DNA of 43,772 nucleotides, from the NCBI GenBank assembly GCA_023265175.1, contig JAHFUI010000018.1, forward strand, positions 1 through 43,772. The letters are read 5' to 3'. The notes beneath the pieces are model-generated. The model ran no database searches. It was not told the DNA's origin and saw only the letters and a list, made by a program, of their open reading frames with translations. Shown here piece after piece: positions 2,833 to 37,654 of the stretch. Position 1 is the first letter of the stretch; every line of letters starts with the position of its first letter. The DNA comes from Acidobacteriota bacterium. GTDB taxonomy: Bacteria > Acidobacteriota > Vicinamibacteria > Vicinamibacterales > CAVVIG01. The position numbers and the translations under genes are program-made.

Positions 2833-2918
2833 AAATGCACAATGCGCAATGCACAATGCACAATGCACAATGCGCGGCGCGCATGTGACGCCGGCAATTC
2901 GCATTTAGCATTGTGCAC
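2833..2918. repeat. Hairpin repeat, AATGCAC unit, left part (split by insertion)
   Basis: Tandem copies of AATGCACAATGC start right after the subunit II stop codon. The complementary arm begins at about 2895 (ATTCGCATTTAGCATTGTGC) and breaks off at 2918. It resumes at 3197 with ATTGTGCACTTAGCATTCG. The two halves are separated by a 278-bp element, described next. Joining 2918 to 3206 restores a continuous arm. Confidence 0.7.
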
Positions 2919-3196
2919 CACTCTTTGTCCAAATTAGCTCTTGAGGATTCGCAACTTGGACAGCATCTCGCTCGTGCTCGCGCCCCAGGCGGCGGCGCGA
3001 ACCCTCCGGAAGCCCGCAGAATCGGCCTTCTCAGCGGAAATCGGCTCTGCGACGGCCGGTGGCCGTCCGGCCGCCAATTTGGACAGCATCTGCGAGCACC
3101 GGGAGGTGTCATTTTCGTTCGAGCGCGATCGTCTAGCGTTTTCAACGACTTAACCCGTCCAAGTTACGAATCCGCGCGCTAATTTGGACAGCAGTG
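2919..3196. mobile_element. MITE-like non-autonomous insertion element, 278 bp, with 9-bp target duplication
   Basis: The left end reads CACTCTTTGTCCAAATTAGC. The right end, read on the opposite strand, is CACTGCTGTCCAAATTAGCG, so the termini are imperfect inverted repeats. The match continues inward: GGATTCGCAACTTGGAC at 2945-2961 pairs with GTCCAAGTTACGAATCC at 3157-3173. Internal direct copies of TTGGACAGCATC lie at 2956 and 3079. The element is flanked on both sides by ATTGTGCAC (2910-2918 and 3197-3205), a perfect 9-bp direct repeat. No credible coding sequence or transposase is present. The repeated TTGGACAGC motif near both ends recalls the multiple terminal repeats of IS21-type elements, but the family is not established. 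Confidence 0.72.
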
Positions 3197-3252
3197 ATTG
3201 TGCACTTAGCATTCGTCAGGTCAATCGATCTCGTTACCCCCTCGAACCCGCC

Positions 3253-4308
3253 GTGATCCGCCGCATCAAGACGATCGACGCGCATGCGGGTGGCGGGCCG
3301 CTTCGCCTGATCATCGATGGGTTTCCGGCGCCCCAGGGGCGCACGATGCTCGACAAGTGCGAGTGGGCGGCCAAGAGGCAGGATCCTCTTCGCCGCGCGT
3401 TGATGCTCGAGCCTCGCGGGCATGCCGACATGTACGGCGCGCTCCTGACCGAACCGGTGTTTCCGGGATCCCACGCCGGCGTGCTGTTCATGCACAACGA
3501 CGGCTACAGCACGATGTGCGGCCGCGGGATCATCGCGGTGACCACGATCGCGCTCGAACGCGGCCTGCTCATGCCTGGCGGCGATGGTCGAACGATTGTG
3601 TATGACTCGCCGGCGGGCACGGTTCGGGCCCGTGCCATTCTCCGGCCGCGTAAGGCCGGCCGATCGGATGGGTCAGGGAGGTCACGCGGGCCGGAACTTT
3701 CAGAAGAGATGTGCGTCGAGCGCGTGGCGTTCGTCAACGTGCCCTCCTTCGTGCTGCACGCTGGACTCGTGGTGAAGCTGGGCACCAGGCAGGTGCGAGC
3801 CGACGTCGCATTTGGCGGCGCGTTCTACGCCATCGTCGACAGCGAGGCGGTCGGTCTGCCCCTCGACGCGGCGCACGTTCCCGAGCTCCGCCGCGTGGGA
3901 ATGGACGTCAAGCGCGCGATCGACGCGGCGCGGGCGATTGCGCATCCGCTCGAGCCAGCGTTACGCGGAATCTACGGCACGATCTTTACCGGACCGCCGA
4001 CCGATCCGCGGGCCGATTTGAGAAACGTGACGATCTTCGCCGACGCCCAGGTCGATCGCTCGCCGTGCGGCACCGGCACCGCGGCCGTCATGGCGGTGAT
4101 CGACGCGATGGGCCTGCTCGTCGACGGCAAAGCGTTCGTCCACGAGAGCATCGTCGGCACGCTGTTCAATGGCAGCGTGACGGGACGGACCGAGGTCGGT
4201 GACCTTCAGGCGATCGTTCCGGAAATGGAAGGGTCGGCGTGGATCACCGGCGAGCACACGTTTCTGATCGACGAAGACGACCCCTTCAAGGAGGGATTCA
4301 GGATCTGA
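3253..4308 (+). CDS. Proline racemase / hydroxyproline 2-epimerase family protein
   Basis: A 351-residue cytosolic enzyme of the proline racemase fold, which inverts the alpha carbon of proline or hydroxyproline using two cysteines. Both are visible: Cys89 in TMCGRGIIAV and Cys272 in RSPCGTGTAA. The second Cys argues against the trans-3-hydroxyproline dehydratase subgroup, which has Thr there. The first motif has Arg where racemases usually have His (MCGHG), so substrate is uncertain; 4-hydroxyproline epimerisation is one option. Residues 131-150 form a basic, Gly/Ser-rich stretch encoded by repeat-like DNA. The GTG at 3253 gives the family N-terminus; the frame is open upstream into the repeat region. 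It converges on the gamma-glutamyltransferase gene. Confidence 0.85.
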   Translation: MIRRIKTIDAHAGGGPLRLIIDGFPAPQGRTMLDKCEWAAKRQDPLRRALMLEPRGHADMYGALLTEPVFPGSHAGVLFMHNDGYSTMCGRGIIAVTTIALERGLLMPGGDGRTIVYDSPAGTVRARAILRPRKAGRSDGSGRSRGPELSEEMCVERVAFVNVPSFVLHAGLVVKLGTRQVRADVAFGGAFYAIVDSEAVGLPLDAAHVPELRRVGMDVKRAIDAARAIAHPLEPALRGIYGTIFTGPPTDPRADLRNVTIFADAQVDRSPCGTGTAAVMAVIDAMGLLVDGKAFVHESIVGTLFNGSVTGRTEVGDLQAIVPEMEGSAWITGEHTFLIDEDDPFKEGFRI

Positions 4309-9678: not shown

Positions 9679-10821
9679 ATGATCAACGTCGCCGCGATTC
9701 GGATGCAGCAGTTCGGGGTGCAGTTTTACCAGGCGTCGCTGACGGCCAGTGACATCGACAAGCTCGTGCGGTTCGAAGTTCTCAGTTACGGCGACAGCGC
9801 GCAGCCTCCGATGCGCGGAGGCAAGCAGCGGTTCGGCGCGCCGGCCTCGAAAGTGAATTGGGATCTGCTCGAACGCCGCATCGCGTCGAACGACAAGGCG
9901 TACCAGCGTCAAATCATCCGCCGCAAGATCGACGAGCTCGTGCAGTACTACGAGCAGTGCCGCCAGGCGCGCGACCTGCCGTCGATTCCTGGCGCGGTGA
10001 TCATCTCGTGCGATGAGGAGCTGAACTTTCAGCCTGCGGGCGAGGATTCGCGCCTGGGGATCCTGAAGGTTCCCGAGCGCGAAGGCATCCTGCGCGCGAT
10101 TGACGGCCAGCACCGGCTACTCGCGCTGCACGCCGACATCGATCGCTTCCAGGGCGAGGACTTCAGCGTGCCGGCAATCATCTTCGACCGCCTGCCGGAG
10201 GACCACGTCGTCCAGATGTTCGTGACGATCAATGCGAAGCACACGCGGCTGAACGCGTCGCACCTGGTCAGCCTCTCAGGCCGCCAGCTGTACAAGGACG
10301 AGAACCTGGCGACCGCGCACGACGTGGTGCGGGCGCTCAACGACCGAGAAGACTCGCCGCTCTGCAACGAGATCAAGCTGCTCGGCGTCGGCCGCGGGCG
10401 CGTCGCGCAGGCGCCGCTGGCGCAGGAACTGAAGAAGCTCTTCGCCACCGATACGTTCGGCGGCGCGCGCAAGACGACCGATTTTCACGAGGACGCGAAG
10501 AAGTTCTTCGTCAACTACTTCAAGCAGATCGCGCTGGTGTTCGGCGGCGCGTGGAACGGCCGCAAGTACAGCATCAAGTCGGCGTCGGCGCTGCGCGCCT
10601 TCGTCCGGGTCGCTCCAGACGTCATCCTCCGCCTGGATCAGGAGCACGCAGATCGATCCGACTTCCGGGCCATCGGACGCGCGATCGCCCCGTGGGGCCG
10701 CCGTATCGGCGATCTCCGCTTCGAGACCGAAGGCGCGTGGAAACGGACGGGGACGACGGTCGATTCGCTGGCGAAAGAGCTGCGGCTGGCGCTCCAATAT
10801 CCGGAAGGGGCTGCCGTCTGA
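9679..10821 (+). CDS. DGQHR-domain protein (DndB-like), orphan
   Basis: A 380-residue protein whose centre carries RAIDGQHRLLAL (DGQHR at residues 142-146), the hallmark of the DGQHR family related to DndB of phosphorothioate DNA modification. The ParB-like features around it include FVTINAKHTRLNASH, a frequent neighbour of the motif. In Dnd systems DndB limits modification and acts as a repressor; stand-alone members are poorly understood. No dndA, C, D or E gene and no restriction gene lies nearby; the neighbours are an acyltransferase and rhamnose genes. A DNA-binding or nucleotide-dependent role is inferred. The start at 9679 lacks a strong ribosome-binding site. Confidence 0.8.
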   Translation: MINVAAIRMQQFGVQFYQASLTASDIDKLVRFEVLSYGDSAQPPMRGGKQRFGAPASKVNWDLLERRIASNDKAYQRQIIRRKIDELVQYYEQCRQARDLPSIPGAVIISCDEELNFQPAGEDSRLGILKVPEREGILRAIDGQHRLLALHADIDRFQGEDFSVPAIIFDRLPEDHVVQMFVTINAKHTRLNASHLVSLSGRQLYKDENLATAHDVVRALNDREDSPLCNEIKLLGVGRGRVAQAPLAQELKKLFATDTFGGARKTTDFHEDAKKFFVNYFKQIALVFGGAWNGRKYSIKSASALRAFVRVAPDVILRLDQEHADRSDFRAIGRAIAPWGRRIGDLRFETEGAWKRTGTTVDSLAKELRLALQYPEGAAV

Positions 10822-10887: not shown

Positions 10888-11973
10888 ATGGGAACCCTCC
10901 TCGTAACCGGCGGTGCCGGGTTCATCGGCTCCAACTTCGTTCAGCATGCCCTCGATCACACCGACGACCGCATCGTCGTGGTCGACAAGCTGACGTATGC
11001 CGGCAACGTCCTCAGCCTCGAGCGGCCGCTGAAGGATCCGCGCGTGACGTTCGTGCACGCGGACATCGCCGATCGCGGCGCGATGGCGGGCGTCTTCCGC
11101 GACGCGCGCCCAGACGCCGTGTTGAACCTCGCCGCCGAGACGCATGTCGATCGGTCGATCGACGGTCCCCGCCCGTTCATCGACACGAACATCATCGGCA
11201 CCTTCGTGCTGCTGGATCTGTCACGGCAGCTCGTGGCAGAGTGTCCGCCCCAGGCGCGCGCCGCCTTCCGCTTTCTCCACGTCTCGACCGACGAAGTGTA
11301 CGGCACGCTTGGGCCGATCGGATTGTTCAGCGAAGAGACCCCATATGCGCCGAACTCGCCATATGCGGCGAGCAAGGCGGCCGCCGATCATCTGGTCCGC
11401 GCGTACTACCATACGTACGGCTTGCCGGTCCTGATCACGAACTGCTCCAACAACTACGGCCCGTTTCAATATCCTGAGAAGCTGATTCCGCTGATGATCC
11501 TGAACGCGCTGGACGGCAAGCCGCTGCCCATCTACGGCGACGGCGGCAACGTGCGCGACTGGCTGCACGTCGACGATCACTGCGCCGGCATCCTGCTGGT
11601 GCTCACAAACGGCCGCGCGGGCGAACGATATAATATCGGCGGCGGCAACGAACGCACCAACATAGAGATCGTCGACCGCATCTGCGACGCGCTCCAGGCC
11701 TTGCGGCCGCCGGCGTCCAATTCCGCATTGACGAATCGATCGAGTTACCGAGAACTCAAGACGTTCGTGCCGGACCGGCCCGGCCACGACCGGCGCTATG
11801 CCATCGACGCTGCTAGAATCCGTCGCGAGCTGGGCTGGTCGCCCCGCCACCGGTTCGAAGACGGCCTGACGAAGACCGTCCGCTGGTACGTCGAGCATCG
11901 CGACTGGTGCAAAGCCGTTCAAGCCGGCCGCTACGGCCGCGAACGGCTCGGCCTTGGGGAGCGTCGGGGATGA
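10888..11973 (+). CDS. rmlB: dTDP-glucose 4,6-dehydratase
   Basis: A 361-residue short-chain dehydrogenase/reductase of the extended type, converting dTDP-glucose to dTDP-4-keto-6-deoxyglucose with NAD. The Rossmann motif GGAGFIG starts at residue 8. The catalytic triad region STDEVYG gives Thr134 with Asp135 and Glu136, and the Tyr-Lys pair is in YAASK (159-163). The motif NCSNNYGP is also conserved. The ATG at 10888 directly precedes the nucleotide-binding strand; an upstream ATG would add residues encoded by the hairpin repeat. It begins the rmlB-rmlA-rmlC run for dTDP-rhamnose or a related deoxysugar. rmlD is not present in the window. Confidence 0.94.
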
Positions 11974-16757: not shown

Positions 16758-18506
16758 TTACCTTCCGGCCCCGCTTTCATCCTTGAGCGCCCGCCGCAGC
16801 ACTTTTCCCACCATGGTCTTGGGCAACTCGGTACGGAACTCCACCCGTGACGGAACTTTGTACGGCGCCAGATGCTGCCTGCAGAACTCGCGCAGCTCGG
16901 TCTCGGTAGCGCTCTGGCCCGCGCGCAGCACGACCCAGGCTTTCACCGCTTCGCCTTTCACCGGATCCATCACGCCGGCCACGCCGACTTCGGCGACCGC
17001 CGGATGGGTCGCGAGCACTTCTTCGATCTCGCGCGGCCAGACCTGATAGCCGCTCGCTTTGATCAGGTCCTTCTTGCGATCGACGATGAAGAGGTAGCCG
17101 TCTTCATCGAGGTAGCCGAGGTCGCCGGTGTGCAGCCAGAGGCTCCCGGCCGCCGTCCCGCCAAAGCCGGATCCAGCGGCGGGGATATCGGCGTGCTCGC
17201 GCAGCACGGCCGCCGTCTCTTCAGGACGATTCCAGAACCCTGCCATCAGTTGCGGCGCGGAGAACGCGATCTCCCCGGCCTCGTTCGCCGGCAGAGGCCG
17301 CGTGCCTGCCTCGGCATCGAAGATGCGGACGTGCACGTCGGGAAGCGGCATCCCTACCGATCCCAGCTTGTTCGGCCCATCGACCGGGTTCACGCAGAGC
17401 GCCATCATCGCTTCGGTCAGCGAATAGCCTTCGATGATGCGTCCGCCCGTCAGCGCCTCGAAGCGCTGTTTCGTGTCCGCCAGCAGAGCGGCCGCGCCCG
17501 AGAAGCAGATCTTGATCGATTTGAAATCGACCTTGCCTTGTTGCACGTCCGGATGATTGAGCAGCGCGATGTAGAGCGTGGGCACACCGTTGAAGAACGC
17601 CGGCTTCACGCGGCGAATGGTGGCCAGCATATCGCCCAGGTCGCGGGGATTGGGGACGAGCGCGAGCGGGTTGCCATTGACGAACGCCAGACCCTGGATG
17701 CCCACGTTCGCGTACACGTGAAAGAGCGGCAGCGGCGCCAGGATGACGTCGCGCTCACCGCCGAGGACCGATTCGGTCCAGGCTTTGATCTGAAGCCCGG
17801 TGAAGACGTACGCCGCGTGCGTACCGAGCGCACCTTTCGGGGTCCCCGTCGTGCCCCCGCTCATCAACAGGACGGCGGGATCGGCTGCTGTGATCGGGGC
17901 TCGAGCCGGCGCGCGTCCATCGTGGACTGGCAGCATGCGCGCGAGATCATGATCGGCGGCCGCCAGCTCGATGCGATCGCCGTCGCGAGTCTCGCGGGCG
18001 ATCGTAAACAGGAACCGCAGAACCGGCGGGAAGTGCTCCTTGATGTTCGTGACGACGATGTGGCGCAGCGGCGTGCGGCTCTGCACCTGCTTCACGCGCC
18101 GGTAAAACCGCGTCAGCGAGACGATGGTCTCGATACCGTGTTCACGGAGCGGGCCTTCGAGCTCCCGCTCCGTGTAGGCCGGGTTCAGCGGCGCGACAAT
18201 CGCGCCCAGCTTCCAGGCCCCGAATTGGGCGATCAGAAATTGCGGGCAGTTGGGTAGGAGCAGCGCGATTCGATCGCCGCGCCGGATCCCGAGCGCGTCG
18301 AATGCGCACGCGCACGCGTCGCTCAGGCGTTCGAGCGCGCCCCACGTGATCGTGGAGCCTTTAAACAGGATCGCCGGGCGATCGGTGCGTTCAAGCGCCG
18401 CATCGGCCAGGTAATCGACCAGCGTGCGGCTCGGGTACGGCGCCAGCGTCCGCGGCACGCCCACGTCGTAATGATCGAGCCAGGGGGCAGTTGGAGAGGA
18501 ACTCAC
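16758..18506 (-). CDS. fadD: Long-chain acyl-CoA synthetase
   Basis: A 582-residue ANL-superfamily enzyme that activates fatty acids through an acyl-adenylate to acyl-CoA. The P-loop LLMSGGTTGTPKGALGTH, the adenine motif GYSLTEAMM and the C-terminal hinge and FACS motif TGDLGYLDEDGYLFIVDRKK followed by GYQVWPREIEE are intact, as is the catalytic Lys in KTMVGKVLRR near the end. The GTG at 18506 is preferred; an ATG ten codons upstream lies inside a hairpin repeat and would add residues encoded by it. It is read from the same strand as the arg genes but has no clear link to them. The exact acyl chain length is not predictable. Confidence 0.88.
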   Translation of the reverse strand: MSSSPTAPWLDHYDVGVPRTLAPYPSRTLVDYLADAALERTDRPAILFKGSTITWGALERLSDACACAFDALGIRRGDRIALLLPNCPQFLIAQFGAWKLGAIVAPLNPAYTERELEGPLREHGIETIVSLTRFYRRVKQVQSRTPLRHIVVTNIKEHFPPVLRFLFTIARETRDGDRIELAAADHDLARMLPVHDGRAPARAPITAADPAVLLMSGGTTGTPKGALGTHAAYVFTGLQIKAWTESVLGGERDVILAPLPLFHVYANVGIQGLAFVNGNPLALVPNPRDLGDMLATIRRVKPAFFNGVPTLYIALLNHPDVQQGKVDFKSIKICFSGAAALLADTKQRFEALTGGRIIEGYSLTEAMMALCVNPVDGPNKLGSVGMPLPDVHVRIFDAEAGTRPLPANEAGEIAFSAPQLMAGFWNRPEETAAVLREHADIPAAGSGFGGTAAGSLWLHTGDLGYLDEDGYLFIVDRKKDLIKASGYQVWPREIEEVLATHPAVAEVGVAGVMDPVKGEAVKAWVVLRAGQSATETELREFCRQHLAPYKVPSRVEFRTELPKTMVGKVLRRALKDESGAGR

Positions 18507-18592: not shown

Positions 18593-19551
18593 GCTGCCCG
18601 CGGAGCGAGCAGCATCAGGAGCAGCGCCTTTTGGCCATGCAGCCGATTCTCGGCCTGATCGAACACGATCGACGCCGGCGACTCGAAGACGTCGCTCGTG
18701 ACTTCCTCACCGCGATGCGCCGGCAGGCAATGCATGAAGAGCGCCCCGGGTTTGGCGAGCGACATGAGATCCTCGTTGACCTGGTACCCCGCGAACGCAT
18801 GGCGGCGGACCTCGGCTTCCGCTTCTTTTCCCATCGACGTCCAGGTGTCGGTGTACACCGCATCGACGCCGGCGACGGCGTCGGCCGCCTCGGTGAACAG
18901 CCGGAGCCTGGCGCCATGGACGGCGGCGTGCGTCGACTGCTGTAGCACCGTGTCGGGAAGCCGATAACCATCGGGGCTCGCGACGTGGAGGTTGACCCCG
19001 AGCAGCGCCGACGCGTGCGCCAGCGACGTCGCCACGTTGTTCCCGTCGCCGACATACGCAATCGTCCGACCGCGCAGGGCACCCCAGTGCTCGCGCAGCG
19101 TCAGGAAGTCAGCGACCACTTGGCACGGGTGCTCTGCGTCGGTGAGCGCGTTGATGACGTGAAGCCGGCACGCGCTGGCCGCGAACTGTTCCAGGACCTG
19201 GTGCGAAAATGTCCGGATCACGACGGCGTCGATCCACCGCTCGAGGTTGCGCGCGACATCGGCCACCGGCTCGCGCTGCCCGAGCGCCGCCTCCGGCTGC
19301 AGACCGATCACCGAGCCTCCAAGCTCCCGGACCGCGATCTCGAACGTCGTGCGAGTCCGCAGCGATGACTTTTCGAACAGCATCGCGACATACCGTCCGC
19401 TGAGCGCGGCCGCCGTGGGCGCCTGCGGACCCAGCACGCGATCGGCCTTGACCCGTGCGGCCAGTTCCAGACACCGCTCGAGGTCGGCGGCGTCGAAGTC
19501 GAGGACCGAGAGAAAATCCTTGCGAGGAGTCACCGAGGTTACGTTGGTCAT
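18586..19551 (-). CDS. argF: Ornithine carbamoyltransferase
   Basis: A 321-residue cytosolic enzyme forming citrulline from ornithine and carbamoyl phosphate. The carbamoyl-phosphate loop is present as EKSSLRTRTTFE; bacterial members more often have STRT, but plant enzymes with SMRTR show the position tolerates change. HPCQ, the DGNNVATSL region, the SMG loop (DTWTSMGKE) and HCLPAHRGEEV are intact. The SMG loop and HPCQ favour ornithine over acetylornithine as substrate. Its stop codon is supplied by a hairpin repeat. It ends the argC-B-D-A-J-F run on the minus strand, after a repeat-filled gap of about 130 bases. Confidence 0.92.
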   Translation of the reverse strand: MTNVTSVTPRKDFLSVLDFDAADLERCLELAARVKADRVLGPQAPTAAALSGRYVAMLFEKSSLRTRTTFEIAVRELGGSVIGLQPEAALGQREPVADVARNLERWIDAVVIRTFSHQVLEQFAASACRLHVINALTDAEHPCQVVADFLTLREHWGALRGRTIAYVGDGNNVATSLAHASALLGVNLHVASPDGYRLPDTVLQQSTHAAVHGARLRLFTEAADAVAGVDAVYTDTWTSMGKEAEAEVRRHAFAGYQVNEDLMSLAKPGALFMHCLPAHRGEEVTSDVFESPASIVFDQAENRLHGQKALLLMLLAPRAAT

Positions 19552-21445: not shown

Positions 21446-22656
21446 GCGGGACCTCCGTCCGCTTCGACGCGGGCGAGTGCGGCATCGAGCCGCGCCAGTC
21501 CTTCGTCGAGCTCGTCTGTCGTGATGATGAGCGGCGGCAGGAGGCGAACGACGGTTTCCGCCGTGCGATTGACGACGACGCCTTGCGCGAGTGCGGCAGG
21601 CACCACGGGAGCGGCATCACGGTCCAGCTCGAGACCCCAGATGAGTCCGCCGCCCCGGACTTCCCTCACGATCGGATGCGCCGCCGCCATTTTCTTCAGC
21701 CGGTGTTCGACGTGACGGCCGACCCGTCCGATGTGCGCGAGCAAGCCGCCCCCGATCAGCTCGTCCAGCACGCACAGGGCGGCGCGGCAGGCGAGGAGAT
21801 TGCCTCCGTAGGTGCTCCCGTGATCGCCGAATGAAATCGCGTGCGCGACGTCTTCGCTGATGAGCGCGGCGCCGATCGGCACCCCGCCTCCGAGCGCTTT
21901 TCCGACCGAGATGAGATGCGGCTTCAGCCCGATGGCGGCGGAGTAAAACGGATAGCCGGTGCGTCCGAGTCCGCTTTGTACTTCGTCTGCGATGAGGAGC
22001 GCGCCCGTGTGATGGCACGCGTCCGTGATGGCCGCGGCAAACGCGGGGGTCAGCGGCCGGACACCGCCTTCGCCCTGAATGGGCTCGGCGATGATCGCCG
22101 CGGTCGAATGCGAGACCGCCGCGCGAAGCGCCGCGGGATCGTTCGCCGGTACGAATCGGACGCCGGCGAGCAGTGGCTCGAACGGCGCCCGATAGTGCGG
22201 GTCGGACGTGACGGACAGCGCTCCGAACGTCCGCCCGTGAAACGATCCGTCGAGCGCGATGATCTCGGGTCGCGATTCGCCGCGGGTGTACCAATAGCGG
22301 CGCGCGAACTTCAGGCACGCTTCGACCGCCTCGGCGCCGCTGTTGCAGAAGAACGCGCGCGGGAGATCGGACAGGTTCGCCAGACGTTCGGCGAGCTGCC
22401 CTTGCAGCGGATGATAGAAGAGATTCGACGTGTGCATCAGCGTCTGCGCCTGTTCCGCAATCGCACGCGCCAGACCGGGATGCGCATGTCCCAGCGCCGC
22501 GACGCCGATCCCGGACAGCAGGTCCAGATACTCGCGGCCTTCGGCGTCGTACAGCCGCACGCCGGCGCCACGCACGAACGTTACTGGCGCGCGGCGATAG
22601 GTCTGTAGTACATGCCGGGCTTCGAGCGCTTGAACGTCGGCCATTACTGTCGTCAT
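21442..22656 (-). CDS. argD: Acetylornithine aminotransferase
   Basis: A 404-residue class-III pyridoxal-phosphate aminotransferase converting acetylglutamate semialdehyde to acetylornithine. The Schiff-base Lys is Lys253 in SVGKALGGG, the cofactor Asp is in IADEVQSGLGRTG (about 224), and the phosphate loop is CNSGAEAVE (104-112). The length is usual for ArgD. It may also act on succinyl-diaminopimelate in lysine synthesis, as many ArgD do. It overlaps argA by four bases. A second ATG lies four codons downstream of the chosen start. The gene is read from the minus-strand arg transcript, after argB and a hairpin repeat. Confidence 0.94.
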   Translation of the reverse strand: MTTVMADVQALEARHVLQTYRRAPVTFVRGAGVRLYDAEGREYLDLLSGIGVAALGHAHPGLARAIAEQAQTLMHTSNLFYHPLQGQLAERLANLSDLPRAFFCNSGAEAVEACLKFARRYWYTRGESRPEIIALDGSFHGRTFGALSVTSDPHYRAPFEPLLAGVRFVPANDPAALRAAVSHSTAAIIAEPIQGEGGVRPLTPAFAAAITDACHHTGALLIADEVQSGLGRTGYPFYSAAIGLKPHLISVGKALGGGVPIGAALISEDVAHAISFGDHGSTYGGNLLACRAALCVLDELIGGGLLAHIGRVGRHVEHRLKKMAAAHPIVREVRGGGLIWGLELDRDAAPVVPAALAQGVVVNRTAETVVRLLPPLIITTDELDEGLARLDAALARVEADGGPA

Positions 22657-22775: not shown

Positions 22776-23621
22776 AATTCTGTCCGCCGCTATCCGTGTC
22801 GCCCCAGCCGGCACGGTCGCGCCTGCTGTTGTCGCAAGCGCCTTCGGATCACGCCCATCCACGATCACGATGTCGTCCACGCCGTGTGCCAGCGCGTCCC
22901 GGCACGCGCGGAGTTTCGCGATCATTCCGGCGGTCGCGGTGCCCTCCGCCATCAGCTCCGCGATCGTCGTCGGGGCCAGCAGTGGGACCGTCGCGCCATC
23001 GACGCCGAGCACTCCGGCCGTCGTCCCCGCGATGACCAGGCGCCGGGCGCCGAGTCGCGCAGCGAGTGCACCGGCGAACACGTCCGCGTTCACATTGAAG
23101 AGCCGCCCGTCCCGAGCCACGCCGATGGACGCGATGACCGGCACGAATCCGTGTTCCAGCAACGTCCGCACGAGCCGTGTATCGGCGCCGGCCGCCGGCA
23201 CGCCGACGCGGCCGAGATCGACGACGCGGCCATCAAGCGTGCGGTGCGGCAGCGCCGGCTCCGACAGCCCACAGGCGCCATCCGCTCCCGTCAGGCCGAC
23301 GGCACCGACGCCCGCGGCCGTCAGTGCGGCGACCAGCCGCGTATTCACCGCTCCGGCGAGCACTGACACAACGACGGCCAACGTCGGCTCGTCGGTGATG
23401 CGGAGTCCCTCGACCTGCCGCCTCTCGATTCCCGCGGCCTTCAGCGCCGCGTCGATCTCTCGGCCGCCTCCGTGGACAACCGCCAAGGGTGTCGAGGCCG
23501 CGATGTCCCGGACGGCGGTCACGACGAGGCGGAGGGGCTCAGGATCCTCGAGCAGCTCGCCGCCAAATTTCAGGACCAGCGGTCTCGTCGCCCAGCTCCA
23601 AGTTTCGACGACAAAATGCAA
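22773..23621 (-). CDS. argB: Acetylglutamate kinase
   Basis: A 282-residue amino-acid kinase that phosphorylates N-acetylglutamate. The phosphate-binding motif VLKFGGELL, the substrate loop AVVHGGGREID, FNVNADVFAGALA and TAGMIAKL are intact. No ATG or GTG gives a normal N-terminus. I chose the TTG at 23621, which lies at the very edge of a CACGAAG hairpin; the frame stays open further upstream only by translating that hairpin. The C-terminal part appears shorter than in arginine-inhibited kinases but complete. It lies between argC and argD on the minus strand. Confidence 0.88.
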   Translation of the reverse strand: MHFVVETWSWATRPLVLKFGGELLEDPEPLRLVVTAVRDIAASTPLAVVHGGGREIDAALKAAGIERRQVEGLRITDEPTLAVVVSVLAGAVNTRLVAALTAAGVGAVGLTGADGACGLSEPALPHRTLDGRVVDLGRVGVPAAGADTRLVRTLLEHGFVPVIASIGVARDGRLFNVNADVFAGALAARLGARRLVIAGTTAGVLGVDGATVPLLAPTTIAELMAEGTATAGMIAKLRACRDALAHGVDDIVIVDGRDPKALATTAGATVPAGATRIAADRI

Positions 23622-25492: not shown

Positions 25493-26731
25493 ATGGAACG
25501 AATCGTGTTGGCGTACTCGGGCGGGTTGGATACATCGGTGGCCATTCCCTGGCTTGCCGAAAAGTACGGCGCCCAGATCATCGCCGTGACGATGGATCTC
25601 GGCCAGGGCAAGGAGCTCGAAGAGGTGCGCGATCGGGCGCTGGCGGCCGGCGCCGTCCGGGCCCACGTCCTCGACCTGCGCGAGGAATTTGCGCGCGAGT
25701 ATGTGCTGCCGGCGCTCAAGGCCGACGCCCTGTACGAAGACCGCTATCCGATGGCGACCGCGCTCAGCCGTCCCCTCATCGCGCGCAAGCTCGTCGAGAT
25801 CGCCGAGATCGAGCAGACGAGTGCCGTGGCGCACGGCTGCACCGGCAAGGGCAACGACCAGGTCCGTCTCGACGTCACGGTGCGCGCGCTCAACCCGCAC
25901 CTGAAAGTCATCGCGCCGGCACGCATCTGGGGCATGACCCGCGCCGACGAGATCGAATACGCGCGCGCGCGCGGCGTCCCGGTCCCTGCCACCGTCGAAA
26001 CCCCCTACAGCACGGACACGAATTTATGGGGCCGATCGATTGAATGCGGCGCGCTCGAGGATCCCTGGCAGGAGCCGCCCGAGAACATCTACGCGGAGAC
26101 CAAGTCGGCCGCCGAATGTCCGGATCATCCCGCCTATATCGAGCTCGGCTTCTCGCGCGGCGTGCCAACCGTCATCAACGGCGTGCCGATGCCGCTGCTC
26201 GATTTGATCGCGAGCCTCGGCATGATCGCCGGCGCGCATGGCGTCGGCCGCATCGACATGGTCGAAAACCGGCTGGTCGGCATCAAATCGCGCGAAATCT
26301 ACGAAGCGCCGGCCGCCGTCGTGCTGCACGCGGCCCACAAGGAGTTGCAGAAGCTCGTGACGACGAGAGATCTGGATCGGCTCGCGCGGTTCCTGAGCGT
26401 GCAGTATGCCGATCTCGTCTACAACGGCCTGTGGGTCACGCCGGCGCGGGAGGCGTTGGACGCATTCATGGAGAAAGTGCAGGAGCGCGTGACCGGCACC
26501 GTGCGCCTCAGGCTGTTCAAAGGCGACTCTCGCATCATCGGCCGTCAGTCGCCGTTCGCTTTGTACGATCACGGGCTGGCGACCTACGACGCCGGCGACA
26601 CGTTCGATCGGTCGGCCGCGGAAGGATTCATCAAAATCTTCGGGTTACCCGTCGAATTGAGCGCCCGCAAGGCTCCCAACGTCGACAGTCGCCAGTCGAC
26701 GGTCGTCAGTCATGGAGGCGTCGTGCGGTAG
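25493..26731 (+). CDS. argG: Argininosuccinate synthase
   Basis: A 412-residue enzyme that joins citrulline and aspartate using ATP. The ATP-pyrophosphatase loop is AYSGGLDTSV (residues 7-16). Substrate motifs AHGCTGKGNDQVR and TVETPYSTDTNLWGRSIE are intact. The conserved core ends at about residue 395; the last 17 residues, starting NVDSRQSTVV, are encoded by the left arm of a hairpin repeat and form a tail not expected in the family. It follows argR by 34 bases, with a REP-like palindrome between, and precedes argH. Confidence 0.95.
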   Translation: MERIVLAYSGGLDTSVAIPWLAEKYGAQIIAVTMDLGQGKELEEVRDRALAAGAVRAHVLDLREEFAREYVLPALKADALYEDRYPMATALSRPLIARKLVEIAEIEQTSAVAHGCTGKGNDQVRLDVTVRALNPHLKVIAPARIWGMTRADEIEYARARGVPVPATVETPYSTDTNLWGRSIECGALEDPWQEPPENIYAETKSAAECPDHPAYIELGFSRGVPTVINGVPMPLLDLIASLGMIAGAHGVGRIDMVENRLVGIKSREIYEAPAAVVLHAAHKELQKLVTTRDLDRLARFLSVQYADLVYNGLWVTPAREALDAFMEKVQERVTGTVRLRLFKGDSRIIGRQSPFALYDHGLATYDAGDTFDRSAAEGFIKIFGLPVELSARKAPNVDSRQSTVVSHGGVVR

Positions 26732-37234: not shown

Positions 37235-37654
37235 TATTCCGTTACCAAGCAGATCGACTTCTGTTACGGCCACCGCCTGCTCGATTACGACGGCATCTGC
37301 AGGCACCCGCACGGACACAATGCGGTCGCCGAGATCGAGGTGCGGACCCCGACGCTCGACGGCCGCAACATGGTGTGCGATTTCAGCGACATCAAGCGGA
37401 TCATGAAGAGCTGGATCGACAAGGAGCTCGATCACAAGATGGTGCTCCGGCACGATGATCCGCTCGTGAAATTGTTGCAGCAGCTCGGCGAACCGATCTA
37501 TTTGCTCGATAGCAATCCGACCGTCGAACGCATCGCCCGCCTCATCTTCGACTACGCCGGCACGCAGGGCCTTCCCGTCGTCCGCGTGAAGGTCTGGGAA
37601 ACACCGACGTCCTATGCAGAGTACTCGGGAAGAAGTGAGGAAGTAAGGAAGTAA
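37232..37654 (+). CDS. queD: 6-carboxy-5,6,7,8-tetrahydropterin synthase
   Basis: A 140-residue T-fold enzyme acting before QueE and QueC in preQ0 synthesis. The zinc ligands are His14 and the pair in HPHGHN (27, 29), with the catalytic Cys at 23 (ICRHPHGHN). MVCDFSDIKRIMK and the C-terminal VWETPTSYAEY are conserved. The last nine residues (SGRSEEVRK) are encoded by the GGAAGTAA repeat that follows. It diverges from queC. QueD proteins are related to pyruvoyl-tetrahydropterin synthase, but the pairing with queC favours this role. Confidence 0.92.
   Translation: MYSVTKQIDFCYGHRLLDYDGICRHPHGHNAVAEIEVRTPTLDGRNMVCDFSDIKRIMKSWIDKELDHKMVLRHDDPLVKLLQQLGEPIYLLDSNPTVERIARLIFDYAGTQGLPVVRVKVWETPTSYAEYSGRSEEVRK

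Follow-up and report, generated by a model that had tools for sequence, protein, structure and literature searches.

Results

The window, by which we mean the whole 43,772-nucleotide stretch analysed (contig C233 of the 308 contigs of its own genome, G000), carries on its forward strand coxB, the gene for cytochrome c oxidase subunit II (2047–2832; Pfam COX2), and downstream of it a proline racemase-family gene (3253–4308, start approximate; Pfam Pro_racemase, 331 bits). Located 3' of coxB is a hairpin of AATGCAC words, with its 5' arm at 2834–2880 (best paired at 2848–2874) and a 3' arm that is interrupted by a MITE at 2919–3196, leaving one portion of the arm at 2900–2918 and another, TTAGCATT, at 3206–3213, all read on the forward strand. 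On direct reading the MITE spans CACTCTTTGTCC...GGACAGCAGTG, is 278 bp long, and has the 9-mer ATTGTGCAC perfectly repeated on both sides as a target-site duplication (2910–2918 and 3197–3205), with junctions that read ...TTTAGC ATTGTGCAC / CACTCTTTGTCCAAATTAGC ... GCTAATTTGGACAGCAGTG / ATTGTGCAC TTAGCATT... Once the MITE and one copy of the 9-mer are removed, the hairpin is restored with 27-nt arms, AATGCACAATGCACAATGCACAATGCG / CGCATTTAGCATTGTGCACTTAGCATT.

The left terminal inverted repeat (2919–2961) contains an outer GTCCAA at 2927–2932 and an inner TTGGAC at 2956–2961, and the right repeat (3157–3196) an inner GTCCAA at 3157–3162 and an outer TTGGAC at 3184–3189. The repeats match at 83–86% over ~40 bp, with the 13-mer TGTCCAAATTAGC perfectly repeated in inverted form and an inner inverted match, GGATTCGCAACTTGGAC/GTCCAAGTTACGAATCC, of 94%. 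A fifth, central TTGGAC site lies at 3079–3084 within CAATTTGGACAGCATC and is conserved in the sister MITEs described below. An earlier sequence-only reading had placed a MITE-like element of this size and its duplication exactly to the base, and its inverted ends, extended inner matches and continuous AATGCAC arm on excision all hold. We recognised no protein-coding capacity, the two chance ORFs being without Pfam match. A perfect 17-bp inverted match also links the MITE interior (3116–3132) with the proline racemase gene (3544–3560), and is probably due to chance. The strand of the MITE is much more stably folded than its shuffled versions (z -7), which together with its position in a hairpin region 3' of coxB could speak for an ancient, non-mobile intergenic repeat, either REP/ERIC-like or an RNA element, with a function such as transcription termination and with 9-mers that match by chance. 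The strong fold is explained by the terminal inverted repeats.

The own genome holds a second full copy at C111:19145–19421 (L002), ~100% identical with a one-base difference from the window copy; the left end of the latter, CACTCTTTGTCC, is one T longer than the CACTCTTGTCC of the other own-genome copies that retain this end. Short-read assemblies break inside multi-copy repeats, and partial copies were found at the ends of contigs C58, C143, C180 and C193, so that the further copies anticipated by the sequence-only reading do exist. In C58 the left MITE half follows ...ACTGCTCAT and in C143 the right half precedes ACTGCTCAT..., and since this 9-bp duplication is common to both, we read the two as the sides of one insertion, giving at least five MITE insertions in this genome. 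The C111 copy has no target duplication (flanks ATTTCAGAT / ATCTTCAAT), a loss that is commonly due to recombination or adjacent deletion (PMC11708052, PMC1525189); despite this, both flanks are made of the same hairpin words. For the copies in C180 and C193, the predicted ends of the missing left flank are ATTTTCCAT and ATGGGAAAT, respectively.

The flanks of the copies are wholly different from locus to locus, with different 9-bp duplications, and the 278-bp MITE is mobile. The insertions are recent, as the copies are near-identical. Because independent copies bear their own 9-bp duplications, a chance match of the 9-mers is excluded, and with it the earlier worry that ATTGTGCAC might recur by accident in a word-rich repeat. 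In a relative, G015 (L186), coxB, a hairpin and the proline racemase gene follow one another with the MITE absent, which provides the orthologous empty site that had been sought. Near-identical copies with their own duplications at unrelated loci, an orthologous place in relatives that lacks a copy, and ends of IS4 type (see below) thus stand against an immobile repeat, a reading that the replicate duplications and the empty site refute and to which we give almost no credence.

The word-repeat hairpin after coxB (window 2834–2925 minus the MITE) is also present in L182, L185, L186 and L191, and across several genera its position is conserved while its sequence is wholly different in each. Since relatives in the family carry a hairpin with other words at the same post-coxB place, we judge from this comparison that the target hairpin is older than the MITE insertion, in agreement with the relative dating proposed earlier. 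The window has about a dozen long hairpins of 7–9-base words (ATCTGGTT, AATGCAC, CCACGAAGA and others), the words differing from hairpin to hairpin, among them those at 408–473, 10540–10590, 11701–11764, 18226–18305, 19284–19382, 22380–22483, 23334–23394, 26393–26479 and 37345–37407 (coordinates after removal of 2919–3205; 287 is to be added to those beyond 2918).

The 19-base right end of the MITE is present in 107 stretches of public genomes from many phyla, and in several of these it closes an element of 1359–1504 bp that has CACTCTTGTCCAAATTAG as its left end and contains a single transposase gene. These IS elements share their polar ends with the MITE, CACTCTTG on the left and CACTGCTG on the right. 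Duplications of 9 bp flank the elements in L058, L154 and L155, full-length IS of the kind that the sequence-only reading had suggested looking for, as well as a longer one in L111. The transposase scores 255–274 bits against NF033592 (IS4 family; cut-off 115) and has the domains DUF4372 and DDE_Tnp_1. The IS4 family is defined by D(60–110)D(100–150)E and Y(2)R(3)E(6)K motifs (PMC2266710); in the L058 transposase the DDE residues are D126, D192 and E295 and the YREK residues Y288, R291, E295 and K302, invariant in A1. Its IS4Sa subgroup has ends CA------T, a length of 1150–1750 bp and a duplication of 8–10 bp (table in PMC2266710), and the ends CACTCTTGT/CACTGCTGT, the length of 1359–1504 bp and the 9-bp duplication of the elements found here agree with these published IS4Sa values. 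The L111 element (Rokuibacteriota) is 2812 bp long with the same IS4 ends and the 9-bp duplication ATCTCACTT; it contains a frame of 352 aa that is not a transposase, along with fragments of a broken transposase, and so looks like an IS with a passenger gene.

Using an end-pattern search of the own genome we found in C153 an IS left end up to the transposase ATG, and in C181 the transposase C-terminus PEPIQGVLL* followed by the IS right end, with the perfect 9-bp duplication AATTCGCCC common to both. The two IS stubs have the same length, 119 bases, and this hints at a cut of the assembly graph at the repeat edge. As both ends of one autonomous copy are found in this genome, the presumed helper is resident: a putatively intact, autonomous IS4 partner whose transposase body is unassembled. 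Transposase-only searches of the own genome gave no partner, just a weak match at C121, which is a piece of another DDE transposase. A second genome, G113, likewise has both elements, with the IS at C37 and C38 beside the MITE.

The match between MITE and IS is limited to 16–25 bp per end and the MITE interior is its own; with no IS match beyond these ends, a simple and recent internal deletion of the IS does not account for the MITE. The identical ends could still be those of a dead remnant of one internally deleted IS that was spread just by recombination or segmental duplication. Against this, each copy has entirely different flanks and a different 9-bp duplication, and a sister 278-bp version with conserved inner sites exists in another family. 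For the spread within its own genome this reading is refuted, as transposition is evident from the separate duplications at separate loci, and overall we consider it very improbable.

No copy of the MITE turned up in the family's 26 other genomes, in which the DNA search gave only borderline matches of 25–50 bp, and among 193 genomes of the class it occurs in just two others, G059 and G113. The G059 sister (the sequence of L065, Acidobacteria bacterium RIFCSPLOWO2_12_FULL_66_21) is 278 bp long, 79% identical, and flanked by the 9-bp duplication ACCTGGAGT; those of G113 lie in C71/C54, with the common 9-bp duplication ATTGGCTAT, and in C35. The 278-bp version of G059, which belongs to a different family within the order, attests to a long-lived independent lineage. 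Other MITE-size elements with the same ends were seen in L126 (Omnitrophota), L114 and L062 (Pedosphaera) and L064 (Acidobacteriota), with sizes of 183, 194 and 439 bp and 9-bp duplications that are perfect in L126 and L114 and 8/9 in L064. With a shorter pattern of the ends, 13 matches were obtained in viral contigs, most of them apparently chance 16-mers.

The MITE thus has five TTGGAC sites, an outer and an inner one on each side plus the central one. Over the three sister MITEs the alignment columns of these sites are 84% invariant compared with 49% elsewhere (Fisher p 5e-10, counted on alignment columns), and the IS right ends bear a similar inner TTGGAC copy. We therefore regard the sites as putative transposase-binding sites, as had been suggested for the internal copies, with the one at 3079–3084 probably an extra binding site.

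Across 102 insertions with this end the duplicated 9-mer has the composition A(60%) T(47%) N5 A(47%) T(62%). Six insertions in this order can be read on two sides, and five lie within inverted repeats of short words, with arms of 11–34 nt: the window MITE in AATGCAC, the C111 copy in TTGAAGAT, C58/C143 in ATTGCAA, the IS itself (C153/C181) in ATCTGGTT, and the G113 copy of C71/C54 in AATAACC. The hairpins hit therefore share no sequence. Three more one-sided G113 flanks, two of them from the IS itself, show words of the same kind. In this one window hairpins make up 3.3% of positions and, by a crude gene model, at least about 14% of intergenic bases, against which five of six gives binomial probabilities of 2e-7 and 3e-4, respectively; were the hairpin share of intergenic DNA as high as 30%, the probability would be 0.011. 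The preference for hairpins is clear against the whole genome and, with this rough intergenic background, likely beyond intergenic survival.

Selection could produce the same pattern if the MITE landed anywhere and survived only in dispensable intergenic hairpins. The hairpins are indeed intergenic and take up at least 14% of intergenic bases, and the G059 insertion, the sole one of the six outside a hairpin, fits this; the five of six, even on the 30% background, and the one-sided G113 flanks do not. We hold selection alone to be a serious possibility, though not the one we favour. The better account may be that the transposase itself, and not selection only, steers insertion to hairpins. A stronger form of this idea we put forward tentatively, as rather unlikely: in this order of Acidobacteriota, the hairpin (cruciform) structure of a site, whatever its sequence, would guide target choice by the IS4 transposase and its MITEs, unlike in REP-specific IS elements, for which a conserved sequence is the target.

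Discussion

With terminal inverted repeats, 9-bp duplications, no transposase gene, near-identical copies and ends common to an autonomous IS, the element represents a MITE family that is new but of a known kind, and its IS4 partner is resident in the genome. This gene-less MITE has entered intergenic hairpin repeats several times, very probably by means of the enzyme of the resident IS. The IS transposase would bind TTGGAC-type sites in the MITE ends and mobilise the MITE in trans, as the sequence-only reading had supposed from the lack of a transposase inside, a view that the ORFs without Pfam match and the resident IS with the same ends support. Insertion would proceed by a 9-bp staggered cut, with a preference for A(T/C)-N5-(A/G)T sites; within this order of Acidobacteriota, most insertions would fall into AT-richer intergenic hairpin repeats.

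The partner IS resembles the IS4Sa subgroup in its CA......T ends, 1.36–1.5 kb, 9-bp duplication and single ORF with DDE/YREK (PMC2266710), whereas the window element is a non-autonomous form. The hairpin habit has a precedent in ISRm22 of Sinorhizobium meliloti, also IS4Sa, in which 10/10 copies lie in extragenic REP palindromes (PMC1525189); ISRm22, however, aims at one conserved REP sequence, while the hairpins here are unrelated in sequence. Bacterial MITEs are short, gene-less, intergenic elements with inverted ends and target duplications that are moved in trans, and nesting of intergenic repeats is known in pneumococcus for RUP, BOX and SPRITE (PMC10969869). The window MITE is like these in general but sets itself apart by its five TTGGAC sites and an unusually clear hairpin preference. 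Neither IS4 nor Acidobacteria came up when that review was searched by term, and the titles and abstracts listed for Acidobacteria MITEs held nothing relevant.

These elements provide a clean autonomous/non-autonomous IS4-type pair in uncultured Acidobacteriota and allow intergenic word hairpins to be dated relative to a recent mobile element. They also form a natural insertion set for asking whether an IS4 transposase senses hairpin structure.
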